DNA from: a virus
DNA: 25,771 bases
IMG/VR virus record: IMGVR_UViG_3300010354_000567
Coordinates: 1-25,771 of that record
Strand: one strand, 5' to 3'
Shown here: positions 10,121 to 25,771 of the stretch, piece after piece
Position numbering within the stretch: position 1 is the stretch's first letter
How the letters are laid out: each line of letters opens with the position of its first letter
Notes under the pieces: generated by a model
The model's input: only the letters and a program-made list of their open reading frames with translations
Told to the model about the DNA's origin: nothing
Database searches by the model: none
Position numbers and translations under genes: made by a program

Positions 10121-10189
10121 ATGGCAAAAAAATCATTTTTTAACTTCATATTAAATACCTACATAAATAAAGGTGCCATAAAGGACTAA
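10121..10189 (+). CDS. Possible 22-aa leader or micro-ORF
   Basis: An ATG at 10121 opens a 22-codon frame (MAKKSFFNFILNTYINKGAI, then KD) whose TAA stop ends one base before the ATG of the next gene. It is basic at both ends with a hydrophobic middle. There is no SD. A CATAAATC box ends 9 bases before its ATG. Its stop overlaps the region just after the SD of the 10191 gene, so if translated it could couple to that gene. It may equally be a chance frame. Confidence 0.2.
   Translation: MAKKSFFNFILNTYINKGAIKD
10162..10169 (+). promoter_or_regulatory. Late promoter box CATAAATA for the 10191 gene
   Basis: The octamer ends 21 bases before the ATG at 10191. Transcription starting about 6 bases after the box would give a leader of about 16 bases that holds the AAGGA site at 10181-10185. 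This is a classic late promoter plus SD arrangement. Confidence 0.55.
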
Positions 10190-10190
10190 T

Positions 10191-10421
10191 ATGGCAATTT
10201 TACCCGCAACAGGTGCAGAACTATCTTTTGGTAAAGTACACCAAGCCTTCACTAATGTGGTAAGGGGTTCTGCAGGAGATGCACCTGCTGGGGGGCAAAA
10301 CATAAAATTGAGTGCGGTCCTTGGTGCAAATGCTGCTTACGGAATTAATCAGTCTGCTGGTACACAAATTAAATTCTCGGCAACATTTGGTGGCAAAGTT
10401 ACACCTTTCCCTTATCCATAA
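10191..10421 (+). CDS. Small glycine-rich probable virion protein, 76 aa
   Basis: The ATG has an AAGGA site at 10181-10185 with a 5-base gap and its own late-type box. The protein has an N-terminus PATGAELSFGKVHQAF, two short similar halves (IKLSAVLGANAAYG and IKFSATFGGKVTPFPYP) and no charged core, enzyme motif or membrane helix. Small proteins of this style sit near fibre genes in marine T4-like phages and are thought to be structural. The role is inferred only from this composition and position. Confidence 0.55.
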   Translation: MAILPATGAELSFGKVHQAFTNVVRGSAGDAPAGGQNIKLSAVLGANAAYGINQSAGTQIKFSATFGGKVTPFPYP

Positions 10422-11981: not shown

Positions 11982-13366
11982 AACTGCCTATCATATATAC
12001 CATCATAACTTTTTACCCAGTCGCCTTGGCTGAATTGATACTGAATTCCTGTGTATGCATTTGTTGTATACACAACTGTATTTCCTGCATTTTCGGAATC
12101 AAACACCACACTCCAACTAGAACCATTCCAACTTATAATATCGTTAGGGTTGGCTTGAAAATCACTACCATCTGAATTTTTCCATCCCGATGGACCTTGA
12201 TACCCTATTCCTCCAAATTGATCGTTATTATTGATACCTTCTAATATTAAAAATCTTGTTCCTACTGATAAAGAACTCGGATTATATGTTAGCGGATTTA
12301 CAATAGCATCTACTGTACCTCTACCAGATATAATAGTGTTCGACGGAATTGTGTCAGGGTCAATGTTTAATATCATTTCATTATCATTGTTTGGATTTAA
12401 ACTAATTGTAGCAACTATTTCAGATCCGGTTTCTTGCGTAAATCTTAGTTGACTAAGCCCTGCCCTAAATTTTCCTGGGTATAAATCTAAAAGTTTTAAC
12501 CATGACGTTGAGTTTCTTGGATCTTCAAGATCAATATCGTCACCTAGAGCAGTAAGATTTATAATTCTTGCTAGTCCGTTCATTACCAGTAGACTGAAAT
12601 CCCCAGAAGTTATTACAACTTCTTCATCGGGACTTATTTGATCAAATATACCACTGGCACCATCAATGTTATATGATGTTTTAATTGCTCCTTCTGCATT
12701 AGTTGCAAATACATTGCTTATAATCTTTGTTATAATTCCTAATTTTCTTACCTTAGCAGGCGGAGTTATCCAGACTGGTGCTGAAAAATTTAGAGTTAAA
12801 ACATCTATATCTTCGTTTACACCTTGAGGAACGCTTCTACTAGTCCATGTTTGTGTTTCTAAAGTAACAGAGCTCAAACTTGTCCAATCAATATAGTTAT
12901 CAGTTGTTTGTATTTCGAAACTAGGATTAAAAAATACTATGATCTGTTCCCATATTTGAAGTTTTTGATCCATACTCGTAGTCCATATGTCTGTGGATAA
13001 CGTAATTGTCCACGGACTTGGCATGATCCTTTCAACAGTATAATTTAATCCTTGATTATTAAGATAAGAATTAGTTGCTGTGTTAAATTCTCTTTCACGA
13101 ATTTGTATTTTACTTACAAATGTAGGATCTTGCAACCTGGCTCTATCATACTGTAGATCTTTTATGTAACAGGCAATAAAGGGTGCAGAAGGAACACTGT
13201 TTTCACTATTTTTTCTTAGTATTTGAGCAACTTGTCTACTCATATCCCCATATCTAACAGGAATAGTAACTAAATTACCTTTTGCATCCTTATATGCAAA
13301 ATTGCTAAAAATATTAATAAATTGAGCCAAATACTTTCTTACCTGACCATCATAAAAATAATCCAT
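11963..13366 (-). CDS. gp15: Tail sheath terminator / neck protein gp15
   Basis: The N-terminus (MDYFYDGQVRKYLAQFINIF, then IPVRYGDMSRQ) and the strand pattern to about residue 230 (with PSPWTITLSTDIWT and APVWITPPAKVRKLG) match T4 gp15, the ring protein that caps the sheath and tube and joins the tail to the neck. T4 gp15 has 272 residues. This one has 467, the extra part being mostly C-terminal (about 290-467), with ISWNGSSW and a WVKSYDG ending like modules of fibre proteins. Its ATG shares one base with the stop of gp14 (TAATG), so translation is coupled. It belongs to the leftward unit with gp14 and the Nudix gene. Confidence 0.8.
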   Translation of the reverse strand: MDYFYDGQVRKYLAQFINIFSNFAYKDAKGNLVTIPVRYGDMSRQVAQILRKNSENSVPSAPFIACYIKDLQYDRARLQDPTFVSKIQIREREFNTATNSYLNNQGLNYTVERIMPSPWTITLSTDIWTTSMDQKLQIWEQIIVFFNPSFEIQTTDNYIDWTSLSSVTLETQTWTSRSVPQGVNEDIDVLTLNFSAPVWITPPAKVRKLGIITKIISNVFATNAEGAIKTSYNIDGASGIFDQISPDEEVVITSGDFSLLVMNGLARIINLTALGDDIDLEDPRNSTSWLKLLDLYPGKFRAGLSQLRFTQETGSEIVATISLNPNNDNEMILNIDPDTIPSNTIISGRGTVDAIVNPLTYNPSSLSVGTRFLILEGINNNDQFGGIGYQGPSGWKNSDGSDFQANPNDIISWNGSSWSVVFDSENAGNTVVYTTNAYTGIQYQFSQGDWVKSYDGIYDRQLWRLIL

Positions 13367-14553
13367 TATACGTCTGCCCTAGGTTTTAGTGCTTTACTTA
13401 AAGCCTGCTTTTCTTTAACAACTTCGCCAGCGATAGTTGATGTGTTTTCATTGTTAACAAAACTGGCCTTGAGTTTTTGTCTAATTAATGCTGGATTGTT
13501 TGTTTGAGTTTCACCTAACATACTTGTGGTCATTCTAACATTATCTTCAAATTTTATCCAGTGTGTACCATTGTACCTGTACATTCTATTAGGTAGATAA
13601 TCAGTTCTTAAGAAAAATTCTCCTTCAACAGGATTGGAAGGAAAGGTTATTCCAAAATTATATGGTGAACCGTTAGGAGGAATTCCATCACCGGTTAAAT
13701 AACCTACATAATAATTTTTTGAAGGTGTACTTAGAACAGCAGAAGCGTCAAATGAGTCTTCTGTAATATTAACAGTTTCACTAGCATCTTTCACATCAAC
13801 TAGTCCTGTTACGGCATCAGTAGGAATTACATAAAGATGTTTAGTTTCATATCCACTCTTAGGCACATCTTCTTCTGCTTGTAAAATAACTTGATTATTA
13901 ATATCTATAGATTTTTGATATTCTGATAATAAATCTCTTAGAGTTGACCCATCTTCTGCTCCAGAATCTTTATCAAAAATCTCTTTAAATTCTTGTCTAT
14001 CAACAAGAGGCTGACATTTTGCCCTTATTAAATGTGGGTACCATGTTTGACTATATCCTGTAGCAGGACGAGTAACTTCTGAAACTACATAAAATCTTTT
14101 AAGAGCAACAAGGCTATCATCTAATGCATATTCATCTTTTTGATGAGGTAATTCTAAAACATCCCCTGGCATTATTTTTCTACCTAAGGCATCAAAACTT
14201 GACCTTAAATGAAATGTAACCATTATGTTATCATTTTGAAGAAATAGACCAAATTGGCTTAAATTAAAATCAATATCCTGTAAGGTATAAATTCCTCTAA
14301 TTACATAAACATCTTCGCTATAATGCCTATCTCTATTTTCTAAAAATAATAAATCTTGAATGCCTAATTCTGGAATTTCGTTAGTCTGATTAGGTTGAGT
14401 AGGTGAACTTTCGCCTTCAACGGGATTTACCGGTCCGAGGTATTTGTGTATGTAGACATCGGTTCCTCCAATTTGAAATTGCTCGTTAATTGCACGATCT
14501 AAAAATCTAAAATCATTACCTTTTTCTGGACGATAGAGTGATAAGCGTGGCAT
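13366..14553 (-). CDS. gp14: Neck protein gp14
   Basis: Residues from about 75 to 200 hold the gp14 neck signature: IQDLLFLENRDR, FGLFLQNDNIMVTFHL, GRKIMPGDVLELPH and RFYVVSEVTRPATGYSQTW. T4 gp14 forms part of the collar that closes the filled head and receives the tail. At 395 residues it is longer than T4 gp14 (256); the extra C-terminal part includes YRYNGTHWIK, a small beta module also seen in other virion proteins here. The ATG has no SD, and a perfect TATAAATA box on this strand ends 7 bases before it. Its partner gp13 is read from the other strand, 29 bases away. Confidence 0.8.
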   Translation of the reverse strand: MPRLSLYRPEKGNDFRFLDRAINEQFQIGGTDVYIHKYLGPVNPVEGESSPTQPNQTNEIPELGIQDLLFLENRDRHYSEDVYVIRGIYTLQDIDFNLSQFGLFLQNDNIMVTFHLRSSFDALGRKIMPGDVLELPHQKDEYALDDSLVALKRFYVVSEVTRPATGYSQTWYPHLIRAKCQPLVDRQEFKEIFDKDSGAEDGSTLRDLLSEYQKSIDINNQVILQAEEDVPKSGYETKHLYVIPTDAVTGLVDVKDASETVNITEDSFDASAVLSTPSKNYYVGYLTGDGIPPNGSPYNFGITFPSNPVEGEFFLRTDYLPNRMYRYNGTHWIKFEDNVRMTTSMLGETQTNNPALIRQKLKASFVNNENTSTIAGEVVKEKQALSKALKPRADV

Positions 14554-14560
14554 AGTCTTA

Positions 14561-14568
14561 TATTTATA
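14561..14568 (-). promoter_or_regulatory. Late promoter TATAAATA for gp14-gp15-Nudix
   Basis: On the minus strand this is an exact T4 late octamer. Only 7 bases separate it from the gp14 ATG, with no SD between, so a transcript starting at the T4 distance would begin at or within a base or two of the start codon. Confidence 0.65.
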
Positions 14569-14569
14569 G

Positions 14570-14577
14570 CATAAATA
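14570..14577 (+). promoter_or_regulatory. Late promoter CATAAATA for gp13
   Basis: The box ends 5 bases before the gp13 ATG and is one base from the opposite-strand box. No SD is present. It forms a compact back-to-back late promoter pair in a 29-base gap. Confidence 0.6.
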
Positions 14578-14582
14578 TCCAT

Positions 14583-15341
14583 ATGAATGAGAACGATCTA
14601 GAACGACAAAAGGTAGTAGAATATTGCAAAATCATGCTCGGCGACGGCATGATTGATGTTGAATTGAATACAGAGAATTATAATATTGCTATTGATCGTG
14701 CGTTAGGTAAATTTAGACAGCGCAGTAGTAACGCTGTAGAAGAAAGTTATGCCTTTTTAATGGTAGAAGTTGATAGGAATGAATATTTTCTTCCTAATGA
14801 AGTTATGGATGTTCGTCAAATATTTAGAAGAAGTATAGGAAGTAGATCAGGCGGCGGACAGGGCGGAACATTGTTTGAACCATTTAATCTCGCTTATTCT
14901 AATACATACTTGTTAACAGCAACTAACATGGGTGGATTAGCAACCTATTATGCTTTCGCAAGTTATCAAAAACAAGTTGGAAAAATGTTCGGTAGTGAAA
15001 TTAATTTCCTCTATAACAGAACAAATAAAAAACTCACGCTGATGCAACGTCCGAGAAGCGAAGAAGAAGTGTTAATTTGGATTTATAATAAGCGCCCCGA
15101 TTTCAATCTGTTACAAGATAATTTTGCCAGTCAATGGTTAAGAGATTACACCTTGGCAACTTGTAAAATCATGCTGGGAGAAGCAAGAGAAAAATTTGCT
15201 CAGATAGCCAGTCCTCAGGGAGGAACTAGTCTAAATGGAACAGCATTAAAGTCAGAAGGAAAAGCAGAAATTGAAGTCCTTGAACAAGATCTTATCAATT
15301 ATAAGGATGGTGGGACACCTCTTACATTTGTAATTGGCTAA
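14583..15341 (+). CDS. gp13: Neck protein gp13
   Basis: The 252-residue product has the gp13 pattern: a helical N-terminus (VVEYCKIMLGDGMIDVELN), a fold with YFLPNEVMDVRQIFRR, the strand NKKLTLMQRPR and a conserved helix with WLRDYTLATCKIMLGEAREKF. T4 gp13 (309 residues) forms the neck with gp14 and seals the packaged head. There is no SD. The CATAAATA box ends 5 bases upstream, so the mRNA may be leaderless. The gene pairs head to head with gp14. Confidence 0.8.
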   Translation: MNENDLERQKVVEYCKIMLGDGMIDVELNTENYNIAIDRALGKFRQRSSNAVEESYAFLMVEVDRNEYFLPNEVMDVRQIFRRSIGSRSGGGQGGTLFEPFNLAYSNTYLLTATNMGGLATYYAFASYQKQVGKMFGSEINFLYNRTNKKLTLMQRPRSEEEVLIWIYNKRPDFNLLQDNFASQWLRDYTLATCKIMLGEAREKFAQIASPQGGTSLNGTALKSEGKAEIEVLEQDLINYKDGGTPLTFVIG

Positions 15342-15348
15342 AAAACCT

Positions 15349-15377
15349 TTGACTTAACGATAAAAATCATATAAATT
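15349..15377 (+). promoter_or_regulatory. Possible promoter for the dNMP kinase
   Basis: TATAAATT at 15370-15377 differs from the T4 late octamer only in its last base. TTGACT at 15349-15354 with TATAAA 15 bases later (or TAAATT 17 bases later) also looks like a host sigma70-type promoter. Either would leave a short leader with the CGAGGAG site, and early expression of the kinase is possible. Confidence 0.4.
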
Positions 15378-15398
15378 TACAGATCCCGAGGAGTTTCT

Positions 15399-16058
15399 AT
15401 GATTATAGGATTTGTTGGTTTTATAGGTTCAGGCAAAGATACAGCCGCAGATTATCTGGTAAATTTTCATGGTTTTAGACGTGACAGTTTTGCCAATTCC
15501 TTAAAAGACGCTATCAGTAATGTTTTTGGATGGGATAGAACATTAATGGAAGGTCGCACTAAAGAAAGCAGGGAGTGGAGGGAAAAGGTAGACCCATGGT
15601 GGGCAGATAGATTGAATATTCCTCATTTAACTCCTCGGTGGGTTATGCAATATTGGGGTACAGAAGTTTGTCGTCAAGGTTTTCATGACGATATTTGGAT
15701 TGCCAGTGTTGAAAATCGTATGCGTAAAACTAAAGATAACATTGTCATTAGTGATGTAAGATTTCCGAATGAAATTACTGCTATTCATAGGGCGGGAGGA
15801 AAAGTCATAAGAGTTAAAAGAGGAGTCGATCCTGAATGGTATCAGGACGCTGTAAATGTGAACGCCGGACCAACAAATATGAGTTGGGCTATTAGTAAGA
15901 GTAAAATAGAAGAATTAAAAATTCATGCTAGTGAAACAAGTTGGGTAGGATTTAACATTGATTCTACAATAGAAAACAATGGATCAATTGACGATTTATT
16001 TAGGCAACTAGAACAGCTAGTTAAAAATCAGGAACAAGATCTCCTCGTCTCCATTTAA
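15399..16058 (+). CDS. gp1: Deoxynucleoside monophosphate kinase (T4 gp1-like)
   Basis: The 219-residue product has a P-loop GFIGSGKDT (residues 7-15, Lys13) followed by AADYLVNFHGF and FANSLKDAI. Later conserved parts are RWVMQYWGTEVCRQGF, DNIVISDVRFPNEITAI and VIRVKRG. These match T4 gp1, which phosphorylates dNMPs to dNDPs for phage DNA synthesis in the cytoplasm. T4 gp1 has 241 residues, so the size is normal. A strong SD (GAGGAG, 15388-15393) fits the ATG. The gene sits among virion genes and may have its own promoter. Its last 38 bases overlap the convergent zinc/HNH gene. Confidence 0.85.
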   Translation: MIIGFVGFIGSGKDTAADYLVNFHGFRRDSFANSLKDAISNVFGWDRTLMEGRTKESREWREKVDPWWADRLNIPHLTPRWVMQYWGTEVCRQGFHDDIWIASVENRMRKTKDNIVISDVRFPNEITAIHRAGGKVIRVKRGVDPEWYQDAVNVNAGPTNMSWAISKSKIEELKIHASETSWVGFNIDSTIENNGSIDDLFRQLEQLVKNQEQDLLVSI

Positions 16059-16356
16059 TTTCTTCCTTGCCAATTATCCTTTGACAATTAGCACATAAAG
16101 TTTTTAAATTACCATGCCTACAATTGAGTAAATCACCATCGGCATGGAATACATTGAACTGCTCTTGATGTTTTGATGTAAATCCGCATCTATCACAGGT
16201 AGTTCTCTTTTTATATCCGCTCTTTTCCCAAGGAAAAAAACTTTTTATTCTTTTTTTTGAACAATGGTCGCAGGTTGATCTATAGTAAGTAATATTGTTT
16301 TTATAATAATTAATTGCCACTTGTCTTTGGCCACATTTTTTACAAACTTTCCTCAT
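16021..16356 (-). CDS. Small zinc-binding, degenerate HNH-like protein
   Basis: The 111-residue product has four CxxC pairs: C5/C8, C29/C32, C54/C57 and C88/C91. The first two look like a zinc ribbon. The second half (CDRCGF, then NVFHADGD, GNLKTLCANCQ) follows the HNH nuclease layout with the central His71 and Asn83. The usual Asp before the first His is Phe70 and the last His is Gln92, so cleavage activity is doubtful. Such genes are often homing nucleases or DNA-binding proteins. A GTTAAATA box and an AAGGG site precede the ATG on this strand. It is the only gene on this strand in its neighbourhood, which fits a later insertion. Confidence 0.65.
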   Translation of the reverse strand: MRKVCKKCGQRQVAINYYKNNITYYRSTCDHCSKKRIKSFFPWEKSGYKKRTTCDRCGFTSKHQEQFNVFHADGDLLNCRHGNLKTLCANCQRIIGKEEIKWRRGDLVPDF

Positions 16357-16385
16357 TTGGCGCCCTTTTTACTTCCCTTTTCTAA

Positions 16386-16393
16386 TATTTAAC
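16386..16393 (-). promoter_or_regulatory. Late-promoter-like box GTTAAATA for the HNH-like gene
   Basis: On the minus strand the box lies 29 bases before the ATG at 16356, leaving a leader with an AAGGG site. It is back to back with the sheath promoter 22 bases away. Confidence 0.4.
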
Positions 16394-16415
16394 CCCAAAA
16401 AAATTAAGACAAACC

Positions 16416-16423
16416 GCTAAATA
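16416..16423 (+). promoter_or_regulatory. Late promoter box GCTAAATA for the sheath gene
   Basis: The box ends 31 bases before the sheath ATG. The resulting leader of roughly 25 bases holds the GAGGAG site at 16441-16446. Upstream 16357-16415 otherwise holds only the opposite-strand promoter. Confidence 0.55.
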
Positions 16424-16454
16424 CATCAAAGTATTCCATTGAGGAGATTTGATA

Positions 16455-19421
16455 ATGGCGACATTAACTTCACCAGGTGTAGCAGTTACAGTTGTAGACG
16501 AAAGTTTCTACACACCTGCGGCTTCGGGCACTACCCCGTTAATTATTATTGCTTCGGCAGAAGATAAAGACAATCCTAGCGGCACAACTGCGGCTGGTAC
16601 TATGGCTGCAAATGCAGGAAAGGTATATCTTGTAACAAGCCAACGTGATCTTACTGATACCTTTGGGACACCATTATTTTATACTGATTCAAGCGGAAAT
16701 CCTCAACATGGAAACGAATTAAATGAATATGGATTGCAAGCGGCCTACAGTAGCCTAGGTGTTAGTTCTAGAGCGTATGTTGTTAGGGCTGATATTGATT
16801 TAAATCAATTGTTACCTCAGTCTACTGCTCCTACAGGAGATCCTGTTGCAGGAACTTATTGGGTAGATACAGCAGCATCATCTTTTGGTATCAAAGAATG
16901 GAGTAGTGTTACAAGAAAGTTTACATCAGTTACACCTATTGTTTTAGATGACAATACTGCTACGAATATTTTAGTGAACGGAGCACCGGCACCTTCTTTT
17001 GGTAAACCCGGCGATTATGCAATGGTGGTTTCATCTTCTAATGCAAATCAACTTTTTTATAGAACTTCAAATAACAGTTGGATACAGGTAGTAAATGACC
17101 CATTAAAACGTCTACAGATTAGCCCACACTATAATTATCCTATCTATGATGCTAGTACAGCGACCGGAAGTGTTTGGGTTACTACTACACCTATTACTAA
17201 CGGATCAAATTGGGTTATCAAATATTATAATGGAACTACAAAAACCTGGGATATTGTTGATGCTCCTTTATATTCTTCTCGTGAAAGCGCAACTTACAAC
17301 GAAGATTCAACAGACGGTGGATTGAATATTCCTGCAGGATCTTTATATGTTGATTATAGCGTGCCAAATTCTAGTGATCCGATCAATGCAAATTTTGAAA
17401 TAAGAAGAAGAACTGCTAAAGGTGTTACCGTGCTAACCGCTGATGCTGCAACGGCCTATGCAACAAATGGCACAACTTACACATTTAACATGGCAGAAAC
17501 GGATGCAGGAACAGAATCATTTGGTAATTTATATCCAATAATAATGACTGCCACAAATACAACTACGTATTTGGGACAGTTACTTGTTGGTGCAGTATTA
17601 GCACAGCCAAGTTTAACTAATGTAGAAGCACTATGGAATTTTGATACCAATGTATTAACCCTGTCTCATAGACAAGGTGGTGAAATTAAAATTACAAGTT
17701 TAAATACCGCTACAAGAACTTTGCTCAAATGGACACCGTGGTCGATTTCTAATCAAACTGGAAATTCTAATTTCTTTGTAGAAGATACTTCTACATATGT
17801 GGTTAGTAATTGGAAGCCATTGGTATATGAAGCAAAAACTACTGCACCTTATACTGATGCAGCCGACGGTGCATTATGGTATAATAACGTCATTGATGAA
17901 GTTGATATCCTAGTAAATTCCGGAACTGTATGGGTTGGTTATCTTAACTTTTATCCATCAGCAGATCCAGCAGGTCCGATTATTCAGGCAACTGAACCTG
18001 TAAACGGTGATAGAAGCGATGGCGGTAATTTAGTTACAGGCGATATTTGGATTGATACAAGCGATTTAGAATTATATGGTACAAATATATACGTTTACGA
18101 TTCTACAATCACAACTGGTAGCAAATGGGTATTACAGGATACTACCGACCAAACAAGTCCAACTGGATGGGTATTTGCAGATGCTCGTTGGGGAGCAAGC
18201 GGTGCTGCAACTGATGCAGCAAGTATTTCTACATTAAGATCTTCTAACTATGTAGACCCTGATGCACCTGATCCTTCTCTGTATCCTAGAGGTATAAGAT
18301 TGTGGAATACAAGAAGGTCTGGTTATAATGTTAAGAAATTTGTTACAGATTACATAAATTTATCTGCAACAAATGATGTCTATAACGGCGAATCTATGTC
18401 AGGGTATAATGCAGACCGTTGGGTTAGTCAATATCCAACTGACGAAAATGGTGCAGGTGTTTTTGGAAGAAAATCTCAAAGACAAATTGTTGTGAAAGAA
18501 ATGAAATCTCTTGTAGATACTAGTTTAACATTAAGAGATACAGATTCATTAAATTTCAATCTTATTGTTGCACCAGGCTACACAGAATTAATTTCTAACA
18601 TGGTAGCACTTAATGTTGATAGAGGTTTAACAGCATTTGTTATAGGTGATACTCCATTTAGATTATTACCAACTGCATCAAGTTTGTCTAACTACGGATT
18701 AAATGCTAATGGAGCACTTGATAACGGCGATAATGGCGCAGTGACTTATAATGAATATATGGCCATGTATTACCCAAGTGGTTATACTACAGATAATTCT
18801 GGTAACAGAATAGTTGTTCCTCCTAGCCATATGATGTTGAGAACTTATCTCAACAGCGATGCTAAAAGTTATCTCTGGTTTGCCCCTGCAGGTACAAGAA
18901 GAGGTGTAATTGATAATGCTACAAGCATTGGATACATCGATTCAGAGGGTGAGTTTAAATCTCAAACTATTCCACAAAGTTTAAGAGATGTAATGTTAGA
19001 TCCAAATACTAAAGTTTCGATCAACCCAATTACAAATCTAACCGGTGTTGGAATTACAGCATTTGGTCAAAAAACAAGAGCATCAAATGCTAGCGCATTA
19101 GATAGAGTTAACGTATCAAGATTGATTGCTTATCTAAGACGCCAACTTGATATTTTATCAAGACCTTTCTTATTTGAACCTAACGATGCACAAACTCGCA
19201 GAGAAATTAAAGCATCGGTTGAGAGTTTAATGTTAGAACTGGTAGGTCAACGTGCGTTATACGATTTTATTGTAGTTTGTGACGAAACTAATAACACACC
19301 TGCTAGAATCGATCGTAATGAGTTATACGTAGATATAGCAGTCGAACCAGTTAAGGCTGTTGAATTTATCTATATTCCTTTGAGAATTAAAAACAGAGGT
19401 GATATTGAGGCTGGACTATAA
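16455..19421 (+). CDS. gp18: Tail sheath protein gp18 with large insertion
   Basis: The N-terminus (TLTSPGVAVTVVDES) and C-terminal third (NVSRLIAYLRRQLDILSRPF, FEPNDAQTRREIKASVESL, VKAVEFIYIPLRI) are those of T4-type sheath subunits, which contract to drive the tube into the host. ATG 16455 is chosen because GAGGAG (16441-16446) is spaced for it; an in-frame TTG at 16449 is too close. The product has 988 residues against 659 in T4. The extra part (about residues 110-575) holds several small beta modules such as AGTYWVDTAASSFGIKEW, DGALWYNNVIDE and TGDIWIDTSD, likely exposed on the outside of the sheath. Expected to be one of the most strongly made late proteins. It is followed by the tube gene after 23 bases. 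Confidence 0.9.
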   Translation: MATLTSPGVAVTVVDESFYTPAASGTTPLIIIASAEDKDNPSGTTAAGTMAANAGKVYLVTSQRDLTDTFGTPLFYTDSSGNPQHGNELNEYGLQAAYSSLGVSSRAYVVRADIDLNQLLPQSTAPTGDPVAGTYWVDTAASSFGIKEWSSVTRKFTSVTPIVLDDNTATNILVNGAPAPSFGKPGDYAMVVSSSNANQLFYRTSNNSWIQVVNDPLKRLQISPHYNYPIYDASTATGSVWVTTTPITNGSNWVIKYYNGTTKTWDIVDAPLYSSRESATYNEDSTDGGLNIPAGSLYVDYSVPNSSDPINANFEIRRRTAKGVTVLTADAATAYATNGTTYTFNMAETDAGTESFGNLYPIIMTATNTTTYLGQLLVGAVLAQPSLTNVEALWNFDTNVLTLSHRQGGEIKITSLNTATRTLLKWTPWSISNQTGNSNFFVEDTSTYVVSNWKPLVYEAKTTAPYTDAADGALWYNNVIDEVDILVNSGTVWVGYLNFYPSADPAGPIIQATEPVNGDRSDGGNLVTGDIWIDTSDLELYGTNIYVYDSTITTGSKWVLQDTTDQTSPTGWVFADARWGASGAATDAASISTLRSSNYVDPDAPDPSLYPRGIRLWNTRRSGYNVKKFVTDYINLSATNDVYNGESMSGYNADRWVSQYPTDENGAGVFGRKSQRQIVVKEMKSLVDTSLTLRDTDSLNFNLIVAPGYTELISNMVALNVDRGLTAFVIGDTPFRLLPTASSLSNYGLNANGALDNGDNGAVTYNEYMAMYYPSGYTTDNSGNRIVVPPSHMMLRTYLNSDAKSYLWFAPAGTRRGVIDNATSIGYIDSEGEFKSQTIPQSLRDVMLDPNTKVSINPITNLTGVGITAFGQKTRASNASALDRVNVSRLIAYLRRQLDILSRPFLFEPNDAQTRREIKASVESLMLELVGQRALYDFIVVCDETNNTPARIDRNELYVDIAVEPVKAVEFIYIPLRIKNRGDIEAGL

Positions 19422-19444
19422 GAGTTAATAAAAGGAGCATTTAA

Positions 19445-20095
19445 ATGCCTATTGCAAGTTTAAGAAATTTCACAGTTCCTATTGCGGGAGCGCAGGCAAG
19501 CACAACTCAAGGTTTGCTAATGCCAAAATTGAAGTACCGCTTCCGTGTTACCATGGACGGTTTTGGGGTAGCAGGTGCTCCTACCACTGAATTAACTAAA
19601 CAAGTTATGAACGTTACAAGACCTGATGTTTCTTTTGAAACTATTAATCTACCGATTTATAACAGCACTGTTAAAATTTTAGGAAAACATACCTGGGCAG
19701 ATGCAAAGGTAACTCTTCGTGATGATGCAAGCGGAATTGTAAGTAGAAAAGTTGGAGAACAATTGCAGAAGCAATTTGACTTTTTTGAGCAATCAAGTGC
19801 CCAAAGCGCCATTGATTATAAATTTAGAATGCGTGTTGAGGTTCTAGACGGTGGTAACGGAGGATTTGAACCTGTGACTTTAGAAAGTTTTGAATTTCTA
19901 GGGTGCTATGTTAAACAGGCAACCTATGCTCAAGGTGACTACTCGAGCAATGAAATTATGGATATTGCATTAACTATAACTTACGATAATGCAATTCAAC
20001 TAGAAGCACCAGGGGGAGCAGCAAGCGGCGTTGGTGTAAATGTCGGAAGAGTTGTACGTCCGGGCAATGCCCAAGGTTTAGCATCAGGAGGTTAA
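19445..20095 (+). CDS. gp19: Tail tube protein gp19
   Basis: The 216-residue product matches T4-type tube subunits: KLKYRFRVTMDGFG, VTRPDVSFETINLPIYNSTV, the HTWADAKVTLRDD motif and FEFLGCYVKQATYAQGDYSSN near the end. It stacks in rings inside the sheath and forms the DNA channel. It is longer than T4 gp19 (163), with a Gly-rich tail after residue 190. AAAGGAG (19431-19437) is a strong SD. The gene shares the sheath promoter and ends at a strong terminator, so sheath and tube form one two-gene unit. Confidence 0.9.
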   Translation: MPIASLRNFTVPIAGAQASTTQGLLMPKLKYRFRVTMDGFGVAGAPTTELTKQVMNVTRPDVSFETINLPIYNSTVKILGKHTWADAKVTLRDDASGIVSRKVGEQLQKQFDFFEQSSAQSAIDYKFRMRVEVLDGGNGGFEPVTLESFEFLGCYVKQATYAQGDYSSNEIMDIALTITYDNAIQLEAPGGAASGVGVNVGRVVRPGNAQGLASGG

Positions 20096-20111
20096 GTAAT
20101 ATTAACTTTCT

Positions 20112-20138
20112 AAAAAAGCCCGAAATTCGGGCTTTTTT
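20112..20138 (+). terminator. Rho-independent terminator after gp19
   Basis: A GC stem (GCCCG pairing with CGGGC) with a short AT loop is flanked by six As and six Ts, so it can act in both directions. It lies 16 bases after the gp19 stop. Confidence 0.85.
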
Positions 20139-20143
20139 ATTGT

Positions 20144-20151
20144 CATAAATA
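20144..20151 (+). promoter_or_regulatory. Late promoter CATAAATA for the 20157 unit
   Basis: The box begins 5 bases after the terminator's T run and ends 5 bases before the ATG at 20157. No SD lies between them, so a leaderless start is predicted. Confidence 0.6.
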
Positions 20152-20156
20152 TTGAT

Positions 20157-21431
20157 ATGAGTTTAACAAATAATTATATTTCATCAAACGGACAAGCAAC
20201 TGACCTAATAGACGGTAGCAATCAGTCAGGTGTAGTCAGTCTACGTGATTATAAACATGCATCTAATTTGTATGTTAACGATAACCAAATTAGATCTCCT
20301 AAACTTGGTTTTTTATATTACGTTAAATTTATAATAAATCGAGATGCACAAGTATCAGAAGTTGATTCTAATGTAGGAGTTTTTGTAAAGAAAATCGATC
20401 TTCCTAAATTTCAATTAAAAACTGAAACATTAAATCAATATAACAGAAAAACACAAGTGCATACAGGACTCTCTTACAATCCTGTAACTATCGATTTCCA
20501 TGATGACACGATTGGTATTACTAATAGTCTATGGGTAAATTATTATAAAAATCTAATTGCAGACGGCAATTATGACACAGAAACTACTAACTCACCTAGA
20601 CAATTTGGAGATACAAAGTTTGGTATAAAAGATTATGAATACGGAATTTACAATAGAGGTGTTGGACAAAACTTTTTTGATAGAATTGACATCTATGTAC
20701 TAAACCCGTCTAAAGATCATACACTCATTTCGTTAATTAATCCAAAAATTACAGATTGGAAACACGATTCTTTAAATCAATCTGAAGGTGGAAAAATTCT
20801 ACAGAATAGTATGACAGTTGTTTATGAGAATGTTTTATATTATAAAGGATCTTCTAACAGAAAGATTGAAGGATTTGTTAATCAATTCTACGATACATCT
20901 CCTAGTCCATTTGCGTTATCAAATCCAGAAAGTACACCTGTAACCGAAACAAACACAGATCCTAGACCAGAAAATGCTGTAATTTATGAAAGAGCACAGG
21001 CACCGTTGAAAACAGGAAATCCTTTATTTGATAAACAAGGTGCTGCACGAAATTATAGTATTCCTGGAAAACAAATAACTAATCTGTTTGATAGACCCGG
21101 TAAACCGAGACAATATGGTATTGTAAATCCGCCAAATACATTAAACAATCCACTATTAGACATTGCTGCTATTCTTGCTAAAGACTATCTCAATCAAAAC
21201 GGATTCGGTAGAGTTGGACCTAAACAATATAACATAGCATCGAGTGCTCTTAACGCTTCTATAAGAAACCCTGCAGGAAAATATTATGATCCTCCTAGCA
21301 CTCAAAATGTGCCAGGACTGTTTACCCTTCCTGGGGGATTAGGCATCAATGTTTTTAAAGCATATAATAGAGGCGTTGATGGCAAATTAAGGGTAAACCC
21401 AGCAGCAATTGTTTTTCCACCTAGAAGGTAA
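20157..21431 (+). CDS. Tail tube-like structural protein, 424 aa
   Basis: Residues 50-250 resemble the tube-protein fold: FLYYVKFIINRD, FVKKIDLPKFQLKTETLNQY, then VTIDFHDDTIGITNSLW. Such proteins in T4-like phages include the tube and the baseplate cap proteins gp48 and gp54, so this may start or end the tube; which one cannot be decided. The part after residue 255 is rich in Pro, Asn and Gly (with RPGKPRQYGIVNPPN) and probably extended. There is no SD, and a CATAAATA box ends 5 bases before the ATG. It opens a unit that runs to gp16 with very short gaps. Confidence 0.6.
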   Translation: MSLTNNYISSNGQATDLIDGSNQSGVVSLRDYKHASNLYVNDNQIRSPKLGFLYYVKFIINRDAQVSEVDSNVGVFVKKIDLPKFQLKTETLNQYNRKTQVHTGLSYNPVTIDFHDDTIGITNSLWVNYYKNLIADGNYDTETTNSPRQFGDTKFGIKDYEYGIYNRGVGQNFFDRIDIYVLNPSKDHTLISLINPKITDWKHDSLNQSEGGKILQNSMTVVYENVLYYKGSSNRKIEGFVNQFYDTSPSPFALSNPESTPVTETNTDPRPENAVIYERAQAPLKTGNPLFDKQGAARNYSIPGKQITNLFDRPGKPRQYGIVNPPNTLNNPLLDIAAILAKDYLNQNGFGRVGPKQYNIASSALNASIRNPAGKYYDPPSTQNVPGLFTLPGGLGINVFKAYNRGVDGKLRVNPAAIVFPPRR

Positions 21432-21434
21432 TTT

Positions 21435-21803
21435 ATGAGATATAACTATACAAATCTTCCTACGGAAAATAATAAATCAAAAACAATTAAAGAATTCGAA
21501 GGATACCAAAACGTAAAATCTAGTACTAATTCCTCTGTATATCAAGCAATGACAGGGTTTTTTACTTCAAACGGGTTTGACGTTGTTTCGTCTGAACTAA
21601 TATCAGAAGTTATTATTTCACAGGCTAAAAATGACGGTTATAATCCAATGCAGATTTTAGATAGTATGCGATCTCTTAATGAAATAGAACTCTCTGGAAT
21701 AGTTGCAGAAATTCTAAACTATAATCGTTATAAAAGTAGTAGTCTAGGATTTTTACCGAGATTTAATCCAAATCCTGAGATTACAAGAAACTTAATAGCA
21801 TGA
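21435..21803 (+). CDS. Unknown virion-cluster protein, 122 aa
   Basis: The ATG lies 3 bases after the previous stop, with AGGTAA as a weak ribosome site. The protein has a polar N-terminus and a helical middle (SSELISEVIISQAKNDGYNP, EIELSGIVAEILNYN), ending in NRYKSSSLGFLPRFNP. No known motif was recognised. It overlaps the gp4 start by 4 bases (ATGA). A small assembly or neck/baseplate protein is possible given the company, but this is a guess from position. Confidence 0.6.
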   Translation: MRYNYTNLPTENNKSKTIKEFEGYQNVKSSTNSSVYQAMTGFFTSNGFDVVSSELISEVIISQAKNDGYNPMQILDSMRSLNEIELSGIVAEILNYNRYKSSSLGFLPRFNPNPEITRNLIA

Positions 21804-22243
21804 GTTTAAAATTTAGCAAAGACGTTTACAGAATTAAAAATCCAGAAAAATATGTAGGCAAAAAAGATCCCCTTTACAGAAGCAGTTGGGAAATGACCTT
21901 TATGATTTTTTGTGACAATAACCCATCTATTCAAGAGTGGGCCAGTGAACCAGTTAAAATTCCTTATAGAGATCCGCTAACCGGCAGGCAAACTGTATAT
22001 GTCCCAGATTTCTTAATTGTATATGTTGATAAAAATTTAAAAAAACATGCAGAACTAATTGAAATTAAACCTGCTAATCAAGCCCTGAAAGAACGTGTAG
22101 GGAAAAATCCCTACAACCAAGCACAATATGTAAAAAATATGGCAAAATGGGGCGCTGCAAATCAATGGGCTAGCAATCATGGTTTAAAATTTAGGGTAAT
22201 TACAGAAAACGATATCTTTCATAATCCTAACAAAAAACGATAA
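21800..22243 (+). CDS. gp4: Head completion protein gp4 (TnsA-like nuclease fold)
   Basis: The 147-residue product has the gp4 pattern: RIKNPEKYVGKKDPLYRSSW, then EMTFMIFCDNNPSIQEWASE, VPDFLIVYVDK and ELIEIKPANQ. T4 gp4 (also called gp50/gp4) is needed to finish filled heads so that tails can attach. The layout of Glu31, Asp70, Glu88 and Lys90 is that of PD-(D/E)XK nucleases such as TnsA, so it may trim or hold the DNA end. The C-terminal NMAKWGAANQWASNHGLKF is also typical. Its start overlaps the previous stop (ATGA). Confidence 0.85.
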   Translation: MSLKFSKDVYRIKNPEKYVGKKDPLYRSSWEMTFMIFCDNNPSIQEWASEPVKIPYRDPLTGRQTVYVPDFLIVYVDKNLKKHAELIEIKPANQALKERVGKNPYNQAQYVKNMAKWGAANQWASNHGLKFRVITENDIFHNPNKKR

Positions 22244-22251
22244 GTAAAATT

Positions 22252-22731
22252 ATGACGAAAAAACTAGAACAAATATTAGACCTAGCTCCTTCTGATCAAC
22301 CTTTTGAAACTTCAAAAGAAATAAATCATGTGCCGGAAGCCATTAATCTACAAGAAAAATTAGAACAGTTTGACAAAATATCTGCTGCTTTACCTAGAGT
22401 TAAGGGATTAGGAGATATTAGCGATGCAGAATTAGATGCATTAGCAAGCAAAGCTGAACAAGCCTATGATGACCTAATGGATTTAGGTATGAATGTAGAA
22501 GTCAGATATGGAGCAAGAATGTTTGAAGTAGCAGCGAATATGATGAATGCTGCTATTCAAGCAAAAAGTGCTAAGATTGATAAAAAATTAAAAATGGTCG
22601 AACTTCAGTTGAAAAAATTAGCCATAGATAAGAAACATAACAGTGATGAAGATAAGCCTATAGAAGCACAGGGATTTATCATCAGTGACAGAAATACCCT
22701 GTTAGAAAAACTTAAGAATATGAATAAATAA
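22252..22731 (+). CDS. gp16: Terminase small subunit gp16
   Basis: The 159-residue product is close to the size of T4 gp16 (164). It begins with LEQILDLAPSDQPF like the gp16 start. A long helical centre (DAELDALASKAEQAYDDLMD, ARMFEVAANMMNAAIQAKSA) fits the gp16 ring-forming coiled-coil region, and the polar end IEAQGFIISDRNTLLEKL matches the gp16 tail. Gp16 regulates the motor and picks the DNA to be packaged. No strong SD is visible, and it is probably read on from gp4, which ends 8 bases before. It lies 1.4 kb from the large subunit, with two genes between them. Confidence 0.75.
   Translation: MTKKLEQILDLAPSDQPFETSKEINHVPEAINLQEKLEQFDKISAALPRVKGLGDISDAELDALASKAEQAYDDLMDLGMNVEVRYGARMFEVAANMMNAAIQAKSAKIDKKLKMVELQLKKLAIDKKHNSDEDKPIEAQGFIISDRNTLLEKLKNMNK
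22723..22730 (+). promoter_or_regulatory. Late-promoter-like box AATAAATA in the gp16 end
   Basis: The box lies in the last codons of gp16, including two bases of its stop, and ends 5 bases before the ATG at 22736. No SD is seen. It has the same spacing as the boxes at 14570, 20144 and 24139. Confidence 0.5.
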
Positions 22732-22735
22732 TACT

Positions 22736-23329
22736 ATGAAAACCTTTACAGAATATCTAACCGAAAGTCAAAAGCGTTATGATTTTAAAATCAAGATCGC
22801 TGGAGAAATGACTAATGAACAAGAGACCGCTTTAAAGTCAACCCTTGAAAGATTTGTTACAAATAGTTTTAAAAAATCAGGTAAAACTCCTATACAAGAA
22901 CTACCTTTAGATTTTCCTAATGTAAAAAACTTAGAAGTAAATATTTACGAAGTTAGTTTGCATTATCCTGCTACTCAACATGAACTAACAGAATTTGTTG
23001 CCCAAGCAGTTAAAAAGCAAACCAGTCATGTAGTTGTAAGACGCCCGGGAGAACCTAGCGAAGAATATCAAACTCCTGTAGCAGAACGCAAAGGTGCTCT
23101 TTTAGATGATCCAGATTATAAAGAAGCCCCTAATGCTAAGTTTGAAGATTACTACGGTGACAAATATAACACAGGTTTTGTAAAAGAATTAAACGACATT
23201 TTAAGATTACAACGCAAAGAGCGTGGTGAGCAAAGACCTACCGAGGGTGATGCTAAATTTAATACAGATTCCCCTGCTGGTACACAAAGTCCAATACAGC
23301 CAACGGACTATAACCCGTTAAGGAAATAA
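22736..23329 (+). CDS. Candidate internal head protein, 197 aa
   Basis: The N-terminus MKTFTEYLTESQ closely resembles the 10-residue capsid-targeting sequence of T4 internal proteins (MKTYQEFIAE), which the prohead protease gp21 removes after an (L/I)xE site; here cleavage would fall after Glu10 (LTE). The rest has a mixed domain (YDFKIKIAGEMTNEQETALK, then LPLDFPNVKNLEVNIYEVSL) and a charged, Pro-rich C-terminus. No enzyme motif was recognised. If processed, the mature 187-residue protein would be packed in the head and perhaps injected. The ATG has no SD, and AATAAATA ends 5 bases before it. Confidence 0.55.
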   Translation: MKTFTEYLTESQKRYDFKIKIAGEMTNEQETALKSTLERFVTNSFKKSGKTPIQELPLDFPNVKNLEVNIYEVSLHYPATQHELTEFVAQAVKKQTSHVVVRRPGEPSEEYQTPVAERKGALLDDPDYKEAPNAKFEDYYGDKYNTGFVKELNDILRLQRKERGEQRPTEGDAKFNTDSPAGTQSPIQPTDYNPLRK

Positions 23330-23331
23330 TT

Positions 23332-24093
23332 ATGCAGATGTTAGATGTATTAAAAAGATTAGCAGAACTTGATGCTGATAATCCTCGAATATATAACGAT
23401 ACTCCTATTCTTAACAACGAAAGTAAAGAAGTAGGTGAGGAAAAAGCAGATGAAGGTCCGGAGATTCTAAAAATTAAATCTGACCAGGCAAAGGCAAAAG
23501 GCGAAAAATCTTTTACAGTTGGAAAGAAAACCTTTCCTGTAAAAGAAGGTGATGATGAACAAGTAGAAGAATGTGGCATGATGCCTGCAATGGGAGGCAT
23601 CGGTGATCATCATACTCCAGCTAGCATAAACATTACAGCAGATAGCGGTGATGAACTCAGTTCTATGCTAAGAGATATAATGACACTAGCAGGACAAGGA
23701 CAACATGATCATTCTGATGATATGGGTATGACAGAACCGGCAGGAGACATGCCGCCACCTGCAGAAGTGGATACGGACGGTGGCGATGACATGGGCATGG
23801 ACGAACCCACAATGATGCGCAGTATGATAGATAAATTAAACCCAGGCGACGATGAAGGAGGTGACCAGGACGGCGACCAGGGAGACAGTGGTGACGATGT
23901 AAAAGAGTATGACAATACTCCAAATCCAGAAACATCTGGATATGATAATATGACTCCAACTGGCAACGATATGAACAGCAAAGGCGACAGCGAAGCCAGC
24001 AAGGTAAATGGTGGCGGCAACCCCTATACCAGAACAATGGAGCAGGTTGAACATGGTTTATTTGCAGAATATCGCAAATTTATCGGTGAATAA
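23332..24093 (+). CDS. Acidic Asp/Gly/Met-rich protein, 253 aa
   Basis: The ATG is 2 bases after the previous stop, with AAGGA (23320-23324) as ribosome site. The N-terminus is helical (MLDVLKRLAELDADNP), the middle has FTVGKKTFPVKEGDDEQVEE, and residues 120-230 are low-complexity Asp, Gly, Met and Pro, with DDMGMxEP twice (about 23716 and 23785). The C-terminus returns to a helix (MEQVEHGLFAEYRKFIGE). The strong negative charge would suit a scaffold-like or DNA-mimic protein packed with the head, but the function is unknown. It is followed by a terminator. Confidence 0.6.
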   Translation: MQMLDVLKRLAELDADNPRIYNDTPILNNESKEVGEEKADEGPEILKIKSDQAKAKGEKSFTVGKKTFPVKEGDDEQVEECGMMPAMGGIGDHHTPASINITADSGDELSSMLRDIMTLAGQGQHDHSDDMGMTEPAGDMPPPAEVDTDGGDDMGMDEPTMMRSMIDKLNPGDDEGGDQDGDQGDSGDDVKEYDNTPNPETSGYDNMTPTGNDMNSKGDSEASKVNGGGNPYTRTMEQVEHGLFAEYRKFIGE

Positions 24094-24109
24094 ATTTCAA
24101 ATATTCACC

Positions 24110-24137
24110 AAATAGCCCCTTAAGGGGCTATTTTTTT
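24110..24137 (+). terminator. Rho-independent terminator after the acidic-protein gene
   Basis: A perfect palindrome (AATAGCCCC, TTAA loop, GGGGCTATT) is followed by a run of Ts. It lies 17 bases after the stop at 24093. Confidence 0.85.
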
Positions 24138-24138
24138 C

Positions 24139-24146
24139 AGTAAATA
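24139..24146 (+). promoter_or_regulatory. Late-promoter-like box AGTAAATA for gp17
   Basis: It lies directly after the terminator's T run and ends 5 bases before the ATG at 24152, with no SD. Only the TAAATA core matches the T4 octamer. Confidence 0.5.
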
Positions 24147-24151
24147 ATCAT

Positions 24152-25732
24152 ATGGCAATTACAAAAGATTATAAACTTGTTAAAAATGCAAATGTCCAAC
24201 AAAAATGGACACAAGAGCATATTGATGATCTAATTGCTTGTCAAAATCAAGAAACTGGGCCTCATTATTTTCTTAATAACTTTTTCTTTATTCAACATCC
24301 TGTAAGAGGAAAATTAAAATACGAAGCATTCGATTATCAAAAACGCTTGGTAGATAGTTATCATGATCACAGGTTTAATATAAATCTCCTGCCTCGCCAA
24401 ACAGGTAAAACTACTACAGCGGCAGGTTATTTGTTGTGGTATGCAATGTTTATACCAGACAGCACTATACTTGTGGCAGCACACAAATATACAGGTGCCC
24501 AGGAAATCATGCAGCGTATTAGATATGCCTATGAATTATGTCCTGATCATATTCGTTGTGGTGTGGTCAGTTATAACAAACAGAGCATAGAGTTTGACAA
24601 CGGTAGTCGTATTGTAGCACAGACCACAACAGAAACAACAGGTCGTGGTATGAGTATTTCTCTACTCTATGCTGACGAGTTTGCCTTCGTTGAACCGAAC
24701 ATTGCTACAGAATTTTGGACTTCGATTCGTCCTACATTAGCCACAGGTGGTAAGGCCATACTAACATCTACACCTAATTCAGATGAAGATCAATTTGCTC
24801 TAATTTGGAAGGATGCTAGTTATAGGTTTGATGAACATGGTAATACAACAGAGTTAGGAAGAAACGGGTTTTTTCCTTTTAGAGCACATTGGAGTGAGCA
24901 CCCTGAGCGTGATGAAAAGTGGGCAGAAGTAGAAAGAGCAAGTATAGGCGAAGAACGATTCCGCCGTGAGCACGAATGCGAATTTTTGGTCTTCGATGAA
25001 ACGTTAATCAGCAGTCTAAAATTGGCTACCTTAGAGGGCAAAGAGCCATTCATGAAGATGGGGCAGTGTCGTTGGTATAGGAAGATCAAACCTAACTCCT
25101 CATATATTGTTGCTCTTGATCCCAGTCTGGGCACAGGTGGAGATCCAGCAGCCATACAAATCTTAGAAATTCCCAGTTTCGAACAGGCAGGCGAATGGCA
25201 GCACAACCTTACGACTATACAAGGACAAGTACGCATTCTTAGAGATATTTGTAACTATATCAATGACGAATGTTCCAAACAAGGACAAACTGCAAATTTA
25301 TATTTTAGTGTAGAAAATAATGCGGTAGGTGAAGCGGCACTGGTGGCCATATCAGAATTAGGTGAAGAAAGTATACCAGGCCTGTTCCTCAGTGAGCCCA
25401 TAAAGAAAGGGCATGTTCGCAGATTCCGCAAGGGATTTAATACCACACACTCAGCAAAAATATCAATCTGTGCTAAGTTAAAACATCTAATTGAAAGCGA
25501 TAGATTGAAAATCTATAGCAAGCCTTTAGTCAGTGAACTAAAGACCTATGTGGCTAAAGGAATAAGTTTTGCAGGCAAAGTCGGCTCAACTGATGATTTG
25601 GTCAGCAGTATGCTGTTGGCACTACGCATGGTAATGATGCTACAAGAGTGGGATCCTGCTATATACGATAAAATGCGTGAAGAACGAGAAGATGAGTGGA
25701 TTATGCCCATGCCCATTTACATAACGCACTAA
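24152..25732 (+). CDS. gp17: Terminase large subunit gp17
   Basis: The 526-residue product (T4: 610) is a two-domain packaging motor. The ATPase has Walker A PRQTGKTT (Lys86), Walker B LLYADEFAF (Asp175, Glu176) and the coupling motif LTSTPN (204-209). The nuclease domain has the RNase-H-like acidic residues Asp323 (IVALDPSLGTGG), Glu388 (YFSVENNAVG) and Asp481/Asp482 (TDDLVSSMLLALRM). It cuts concatemeric DNA and pumps it into the prohead at the portal. There is no SD, and a TAAATA box ends 5 bases before the ATG, just after a terminator, so this gene should have its own transcript. All catalytic residues appear intact. Confidence 0.95.
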   Translation: MAITKDYKLVKNANVQQKWTQEHIDDLIACQNQETGPHYFLNNFFFIQHPVRGKLKYEAFDYQKRLVDSYHDHRFNINLLPRQTGKTTTAAGYLLWYAMFIPDSTILVAAHKYTGAQEIMQRIRYAYELCPDHIRCGVVSYNKQSIEFDNGSRIVAQTTTETTGRGMSISLLYADEFAFVEPNIATEFWTSIRPTLATGGKAILTSTPNSDEDQFALIWKDASYRFDEHGNTTELGRNGFFPFRAHWSEHPERDEKWAEVERASIGEERFRREHECEFLVFDETLISSLKLATLEGKEPFMKMGQCRWYRKIKPNSSYIVALDPSLGTGGDPAAIQILEIPSFEQAGEWQHNLTTIQGQVRILRDICNYINDECSKQGQTANLYFSVENNAVGEAALVAISELGEESIPGLFLSEPIKKGHVRRFRKGFNTTHSAKISICAKLKHLIESDRLKIYSKPLVSELKTYVAKGISFAGKVGSTDDLVSSMLLALRMVMMLQEWDPAIYDKMREEREDEWIMPMPIYITH

Positions 25733-25738
25733 TAAATA
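25731..25738 (+). promoter_or_regulatory. Late-promoter-like box AATAAATA after gp17
   Basis: The box overlaps the gp17 stop and ends 6 bases before the ATG at 25745. It continues the close-spacing pattern seen before five genes upstream. Confidence 0.4.
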
Positions 25739-25744
25739 TACATT

Positions 25745-25771
25745 ATGAAACCTATACAGATTATCAGCCAA
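25745..25771 (+). CDS. Start of a further gene, 3' partial
   Basis: An ATG at 25745 opens a frame to the window edge (MKPIQIISQ). It is supported by the promoter-like box just upstream and by the gap after gp17. Nothing can be said about the product from nine residues. Confidence 0.45.

Follow-up and report, generated by a model that had tools for sequence, protein, structure and literature searches.

Several late genes in a large, uncultured lineage of T4-like phages very probably have a late promoter fused to the start codon, such that their mRNAs would be leaderless and translated independently of a Shine–Dalgarno (SD) sequence, with both the 5′ ends and the translation route inferred from sequence. 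The lineage is represented here by IMG/VR record IMGVR_UViG_3300010354_000567, of which we analyzed a 25.8-kb stretch (hereafter 'the window', 25,771 nt at full length). It is part of a T4-like late region, encoding gp15, gp14, gp13, sheath, tube, head-closure and terminase proteins, and a Megablast search against known phages returned no match. In the mechanism that we propose, the host RNA polymerase with a gp55-like phage late sigma factor would use a T4-type late promoter box to initiate at the A of the AUG or within ~3 nt of it, yielding leaderless mRNAs for gp13, gp14, a second tube-like protein, a 159-aa protein, a 197-aa protein, gp17 and the gene after gp17. These mRNAs would then be translated by an AUG-first, SD-independent route, while sheath, tube and gp23 would keep an SD leader. 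The boxes, genes and terminators concerned are listed below, with spacing (d) defined as the number of nucleotides between the end of the hexamer box and the ATG.

13366–14553, minus strand: gene in the gp14 position, head and packaging virion structural protein (phrog_11591, E 2e-84), predicted leader of 0–3 nt
14561–14566, minus strand: TAAATA box of gp14, 7 nt before its ATG (14553)
14572–14577, plus strand: TAAATA late-promoter box of gp13, 5 nt before ATG 14583
14583–15341, plus strand: gp13-like head-tail adaptor (Ad2; phrog_211, E 4e-35), predicted leaderless
20112–20138, plus strand: intrinsic terminator, AGCCCGAAATTCGGGCT hairpin and T-run, directly 5′ of the box of the tube-like gene
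20146–20151, plus strand: TAAATA box of the tube-like gene, 5 nt before ATG 20157
20157–21431, plus strand: second tail-tube-like protein, 424 aa (phrog_4542, E 9e-11), predicted leaderless
22241–22246, plus strand: variant box TAAGTA of the 159-aa gene, 5 nt before ATG 22252
22252–22731, plus strand: 159-aa gene (phrog_16202, unknown), predicted leaderless
22725–22730, plus strand: TAAATA box of the 197-aa gene, 5 nt before ATG 22736
22736–23329, plus strand: 197-aa gene, weakly similar to head/packaging virion proteins (phrog_14802, E 2e-4), predicted leaderless
24111–24137, plus strand: intrinsic terminator, ATAGCCCCTTAAGGGGCTAT hairpin and T-run, directly 5′ of the gp17 box
24141–24146, plus strand: TAAATA box of gp17, 5 nt before ATG 24152
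24152–25732, plus strand: gp17, terminase large subunit (phrog_36964, E 2e-112), predicted leaderless
25733–25738, plus strand: TAAATA box of the gene at 25745 (which runs off the window), 6 nt before its ATG

A first-pass annotation of this DNA had named six of these boxes with their spacings (5 nt at 14583, 20157, 22736 and 24152, 7 nt at 14553 on the minus strand and 6 nt at 25745), all of which we confirmed, although it had overlooked a seventh start, that at 22252. The gene at 25745 begins with the same peptide as a family found 3′ of gp17 in relatives. TAAATA-N5-ATG occurs four times in the window, each time at a gene start, and never in the reversed control; for the window alone this is a modest excess (4 versus 1.1 expected, with 2 of 100 shuffles reaching 4).

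The window also contains TAAATA boxes that lie further from their genes:

10164–10169, plus strand: TAAATA box of the gene at 10191, 21 nt before the start, SD AAGGA
16386–16391, minus strand: TAAATA box of a 111-aa HNH-like gene (16356), 29 nt before the start
16418–16423, plus strand: TAAATA box of the sheath gene, 31 nt before ATG 16455, SD GAGGAG

The longer spacing and good SD that had been ascribed to the genes at 10191, 15399 and 16455 hold for the first and last of these, but the gene at 15399, a dNMP kinase, has the good SD without an exact TAAATA box (TATAAATT only), and 96 of 99 members of its family likewise lack an exact box. The sheath and tube genes do keep an SD, as had been proposed, and they do so family-wide, but the tube gene (19445) has no exact TAAATA box in the window. 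Upstream of the dNMP kinase gene (15340–15398), TTGACT and TATAAA stand ~15–17 bp apart, an arrangement that by eye looks like a sigma-70 promoter, not a late box, and would fit an earlier gene.

We then asked how box spacing is distributed in 160 related uncultured loci obtained from two IMG/VR scans that used gp13 and gp17, to which the window was added, using simple gene calling, shuffles and backgrounds, and handling relatedness solely by removing identical sequences. TAAATA-to-ATG spacing was bimodal, at either 4–9 or 17–38 nt, with 333 ATG starts at d5, 56 at d6 and 101 at d7 but only ~8 in all at d10–16. At these intermediate distances a leader would have no room for an SD, yet the mRNA would not be leaderless. 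In the relatives, TAAATA at d5 was found 347 times against a background of 5.3 (65-fold); among its 18 single substitutions at the same spacing only TAAGTA (67 versus 2.9) and, more weakly, TAATTA (42 versus 8.8) were clearly raised. When both TAAGTA and TAAATA were accepted at spacings of 4–8 nt, 24 starts of gp17 in a clade further away were reclassified.

Spacing was conserved within each gene family. All 96 gp17 members were short-spaced (88 at d5), as were all 89 tube-like members (83 at d5), 88 of 97 gp13 members (spacing of 5 in 79 of the 82 with a box), 68 of 87 gp14 members (47 at d7 and 10 at d8 among 69 with a box), 79 of 87 members of the 197-aa family (49 at d7 and 26 at d5, with 8 others at d17–18) and 77 of 78 members of the family 3′ of gp17 (40 at d6, 27 at d5, 8 at d7 and 2 at d4, the remaining one being at d18). 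In the 159-aa family, 48 of 83 members carried TAAGTA at a spacing of 5 nt. By comparison, the sheath family had its box at 26–35 nt in 82 of 88 members and an SD in 84 of 88, the tube family had a box at 18–25 nt in 56 of 87 and an SD in 87 of 87, and an SD was present in those relatives whose gp23 start was read; the remaining gene families were mostly without a TAAATA box. Spacer length was fixed while spacer sequence drifted, with 45–55 distinct spacers in the gp13, gp17 and tube-like families. The conserved 5-base spacing whose absence from relatives the first-pass annotation had set beforehand as grounds for giving up its reading is thus present, and its division of late starts into a leadered SD class and a predicted leaderless class was borne out both by the bimodal spacing and by SD frequency, which after dereplication was 21 of 431 (5%) in the short-spaced class versus 211 of 233 (91%) in the long-spaced class.

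The two classes differed in other features of their starts. At d5 the start codon was ATG in 333 cases, TTG in one and GTG in none. Initiation at the A of the ATG predicts a pyrimidine at −1, which was present in 422 of 431 short-spaced starts (98%) but only 105 of 233 long-spaced ones (45%; Fisher p ~1e-59, kinship ignored); this −1 pyrimidine/+1 A pattern is consistent with the predicted start ~6 nt after the box. In the d7 group the A at offset 4 was invariant, which would allow these genes a leader of 3 nt (ACU-AUG). Natural switches in spacing occur too: within the short-spaced families an SD accompanied 9 of the 12 starts whose box lies at least 16 nt away, versus 10 of 489 short-spaced members. 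Codons 2–6 of short-class genes were richer in A+C and their 5′ fold was weaker; leaderless translation is helped by CA repeats (PMC9031893). One family may depart from the rule, in that 10 of 15 short-spaced members of the HNH family retained GG-rich sequence 5′ of the box, and these members may therefore not be leaderless.

The same genes could instead have a genuine late promoter but be translated mainly from longer mRNAs that start further upstream, in an SD-independent way relying on A/U-rich sequence, on S1 or on coupling to the preceding gene. The short-class 5′ flank is indeed T-rich, several operon-internal genes in the window also lack an SD, and only 35% of genes without a box have one. 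However, an intrinsic terminator stood directly before the box in 94 of 96 gp17 and 86 of 88 tube-like family members (0 in shuffles), its stem ending 16–23 nt before the ATG, and because it adjoins the box, read-through leaders are unlikely at these two genes. At gp13 (plus strand) and gp14 (minus strand), the ATGs of the divergent genes are 29 bp apart with back-to-back boxes separated by 5 bp, leaving no co-directional upstream gene, and a start-to-start gap of 22–33 bp is frequent in relatives; use of one of these promoters probably precludes use of the other. The abutting terminators and this divergence make an ordinary leader from further upstream hard to build, and longer mRNAs would explain neither the constant spacing of 5 nt nor the pyrimidine at −1, so we regard them as an unlikely main source of these proteins.

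We give even less credence to two other explanations. An ATG forms easily after an AT-rich box, and the first ATG could thus be a by-product of the promoter region, with the true starts downstream and leaders of the ordinary kind; this is very improbable, given that N-terminal residues in the short-spaced families were conserved from the first Met, that codon position 3 was the most variable from codon 2 on, and that alternative in-frame starts with an SD within codons 2–20 numbered 0 in five families and 4 of 79 in the tube-like family. Equally hard to credit is a short-spaced TAAATA that is a translation-related or chance motif rather than a promoter, to which the four window sites, at just 3.6 times expectation, would by themselves lend some weight: the same hexamer lies upstream of the SD-bearing leadered late genes and agrees with the late box of T4, and a gene for a gp55-like sigma factor is present in phages of the clade. 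Leaderless late mRNAs, on the other hand, would fit the lack of an SD, the ATG-only starts, the −1 pyrimidine, the abutting terminators and the gain of an SD once the box moves away. Counted against them is the closest isolate, Pseudomonas phage PA5oct (gp17 53%), which has the same sheath-to-gp17 gene order and TAAATA boxes but, unlike the window, mostly has 23–46-nt leaders or an SD at the homologous genes.

The late genes carry the TAAATA core of a TATAAATA-like box, and they share with the T4 late promoters (TATAAATA, gp55/gp33/gp45) this core, a gp55-like sigma factor (in relatives) and the driving of virion and packaging genes. A gp55-like protein was encoded in 6 of 7 large relatives but not in the 25.8-kb window; the one that we examined (305 aa) matched the late sigma family phrog_12791 (E 5e-85) and the T4 gp55 chain 7d7c (E 4e-5). 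This protein (L406:1033–1950), at ~305 aa versus 185 aa for T4 gp55, has ~130–160 N-terminal residues that are unmatched. In T4 the late box occupies −13 to −6 (PMC1524935), about one helical turn before the transcription start (PMC2988020), so a 5-nt spacer would put +1 on the A of the ATG if the spacing carries over from T4 to the longer sigma of this clade. The arrangement in T4 itself is different: in its 49-kb late region nearly all gene-start boxes are at least 12 nt from the ATG, most at 17–46 nt with an SD, as opposed to the many at 5–7 nt without an SD in the window and its relatives. TAAATA-N5-ATG occurs 10 times in the whole T4 genome versus 5 in the reversed control, and the sole ATG d5 site of the late region is inside uvsW.

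The short-spaced class was absent from the regions read in T4, Phosso, Atu_ph07, GAP32 and Munch, and nearly so in PA5oct. In a midpoint-rooted gp17 tree the predicted leaderless state was found across most of the 69 rows that form a group of uncultured phages, to which PA5oct also belongs without having that state; Phosso, Atu_ph07, GAP32, Munch, a Vibrio phage and T4 were outside the group. The tree needed 7 changes, implying that losses or regains occur. The only isolate that we found with the class was Pelagibacter phage HTVC008M, which has 12 TAAATA-N5-ATG genes, including a divergent pair at 18916 (minus) and 18943 (plus). It lies on a distant branch of the tree, where its own gp17 lacks such a box and the class appears at other genes, and we found no paper describing this feature. 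TAAATA-N5-ATG was not clearly above the reversed control in the cyanophages S-PM2, Syn9 and P-SSM2 or in KVP40, Aeh1 and RB49, and Melnitz and two marine single-virus genomes had no clear excess. Phage-encoded bS21, considered as a helper of SD-independent initiation, was set aside after none was found in 12 large relatives; HTVC008M has one annotated.

In the literature that we searched, leaderless late promoters were nowhere described for T4-like phages, although one paper on AR9 notes that transcripts of phages often lack a leader. Our results support the idea that the short-spaced class would be a new combination of two known things, the T4-type late promoter and the leaderless mRNA. With known leaderless mRNAs (lambda cI and mycobacterial and Deinococcus genes) it shares an AUG at or near the predicted 5′ end, the lack of an SD and the almost exclusive use of ATG; it differs in comprising a set of phage late genes that exist beside a leadered class, with a phage sigma promoter fixed against the start codon and with 5′ ends that are predicted. 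The leaderless mode is rare in enterobacteria and inefficient in E. coli, where leaderless reporters gave only ~10% of leadered output (PMC4633059), but E. coli may not represent the host of this phage. That the SD-versus-leaderless split sets expression level, as had been suggested, stands as a correlation only. More speculatively, and on balance doubtfully, the lineage could possess a dedicated translational regulon in which neck, terminase and other late genes, made leaderless by promoter fusion, have an output that tracks 70S/AUG-first initiation and, as the ribosomes of the infected cell change, moves relative to that of the SD-led capsid, sheath and tube. Should the predicted 5′ ends be confirmed, leaderless mRNAs would be the source of some virion and packaging proteins in a widespread group of viruses, and the coexistence of two kinds of start behind a single type of promoter box would offer a clean natural system for asking what leaderless initiation is for. 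The finding would also guide start-codon annotation in these genomes.

Two minor observations concern the boxes and terminators themselves. The tube-like gene of PA5oct (L165:14850–14914) has kept, a short way 5′ of its ATG, a hairpin that resembles a terminator and ends in a T-rich tail, but it has neither a TAAATA box nor an SD. The TAAATA hexamer is scarce in the window as a whole (22 sites versus 53 expected), perhaps reflecting selection against stray late boxes.
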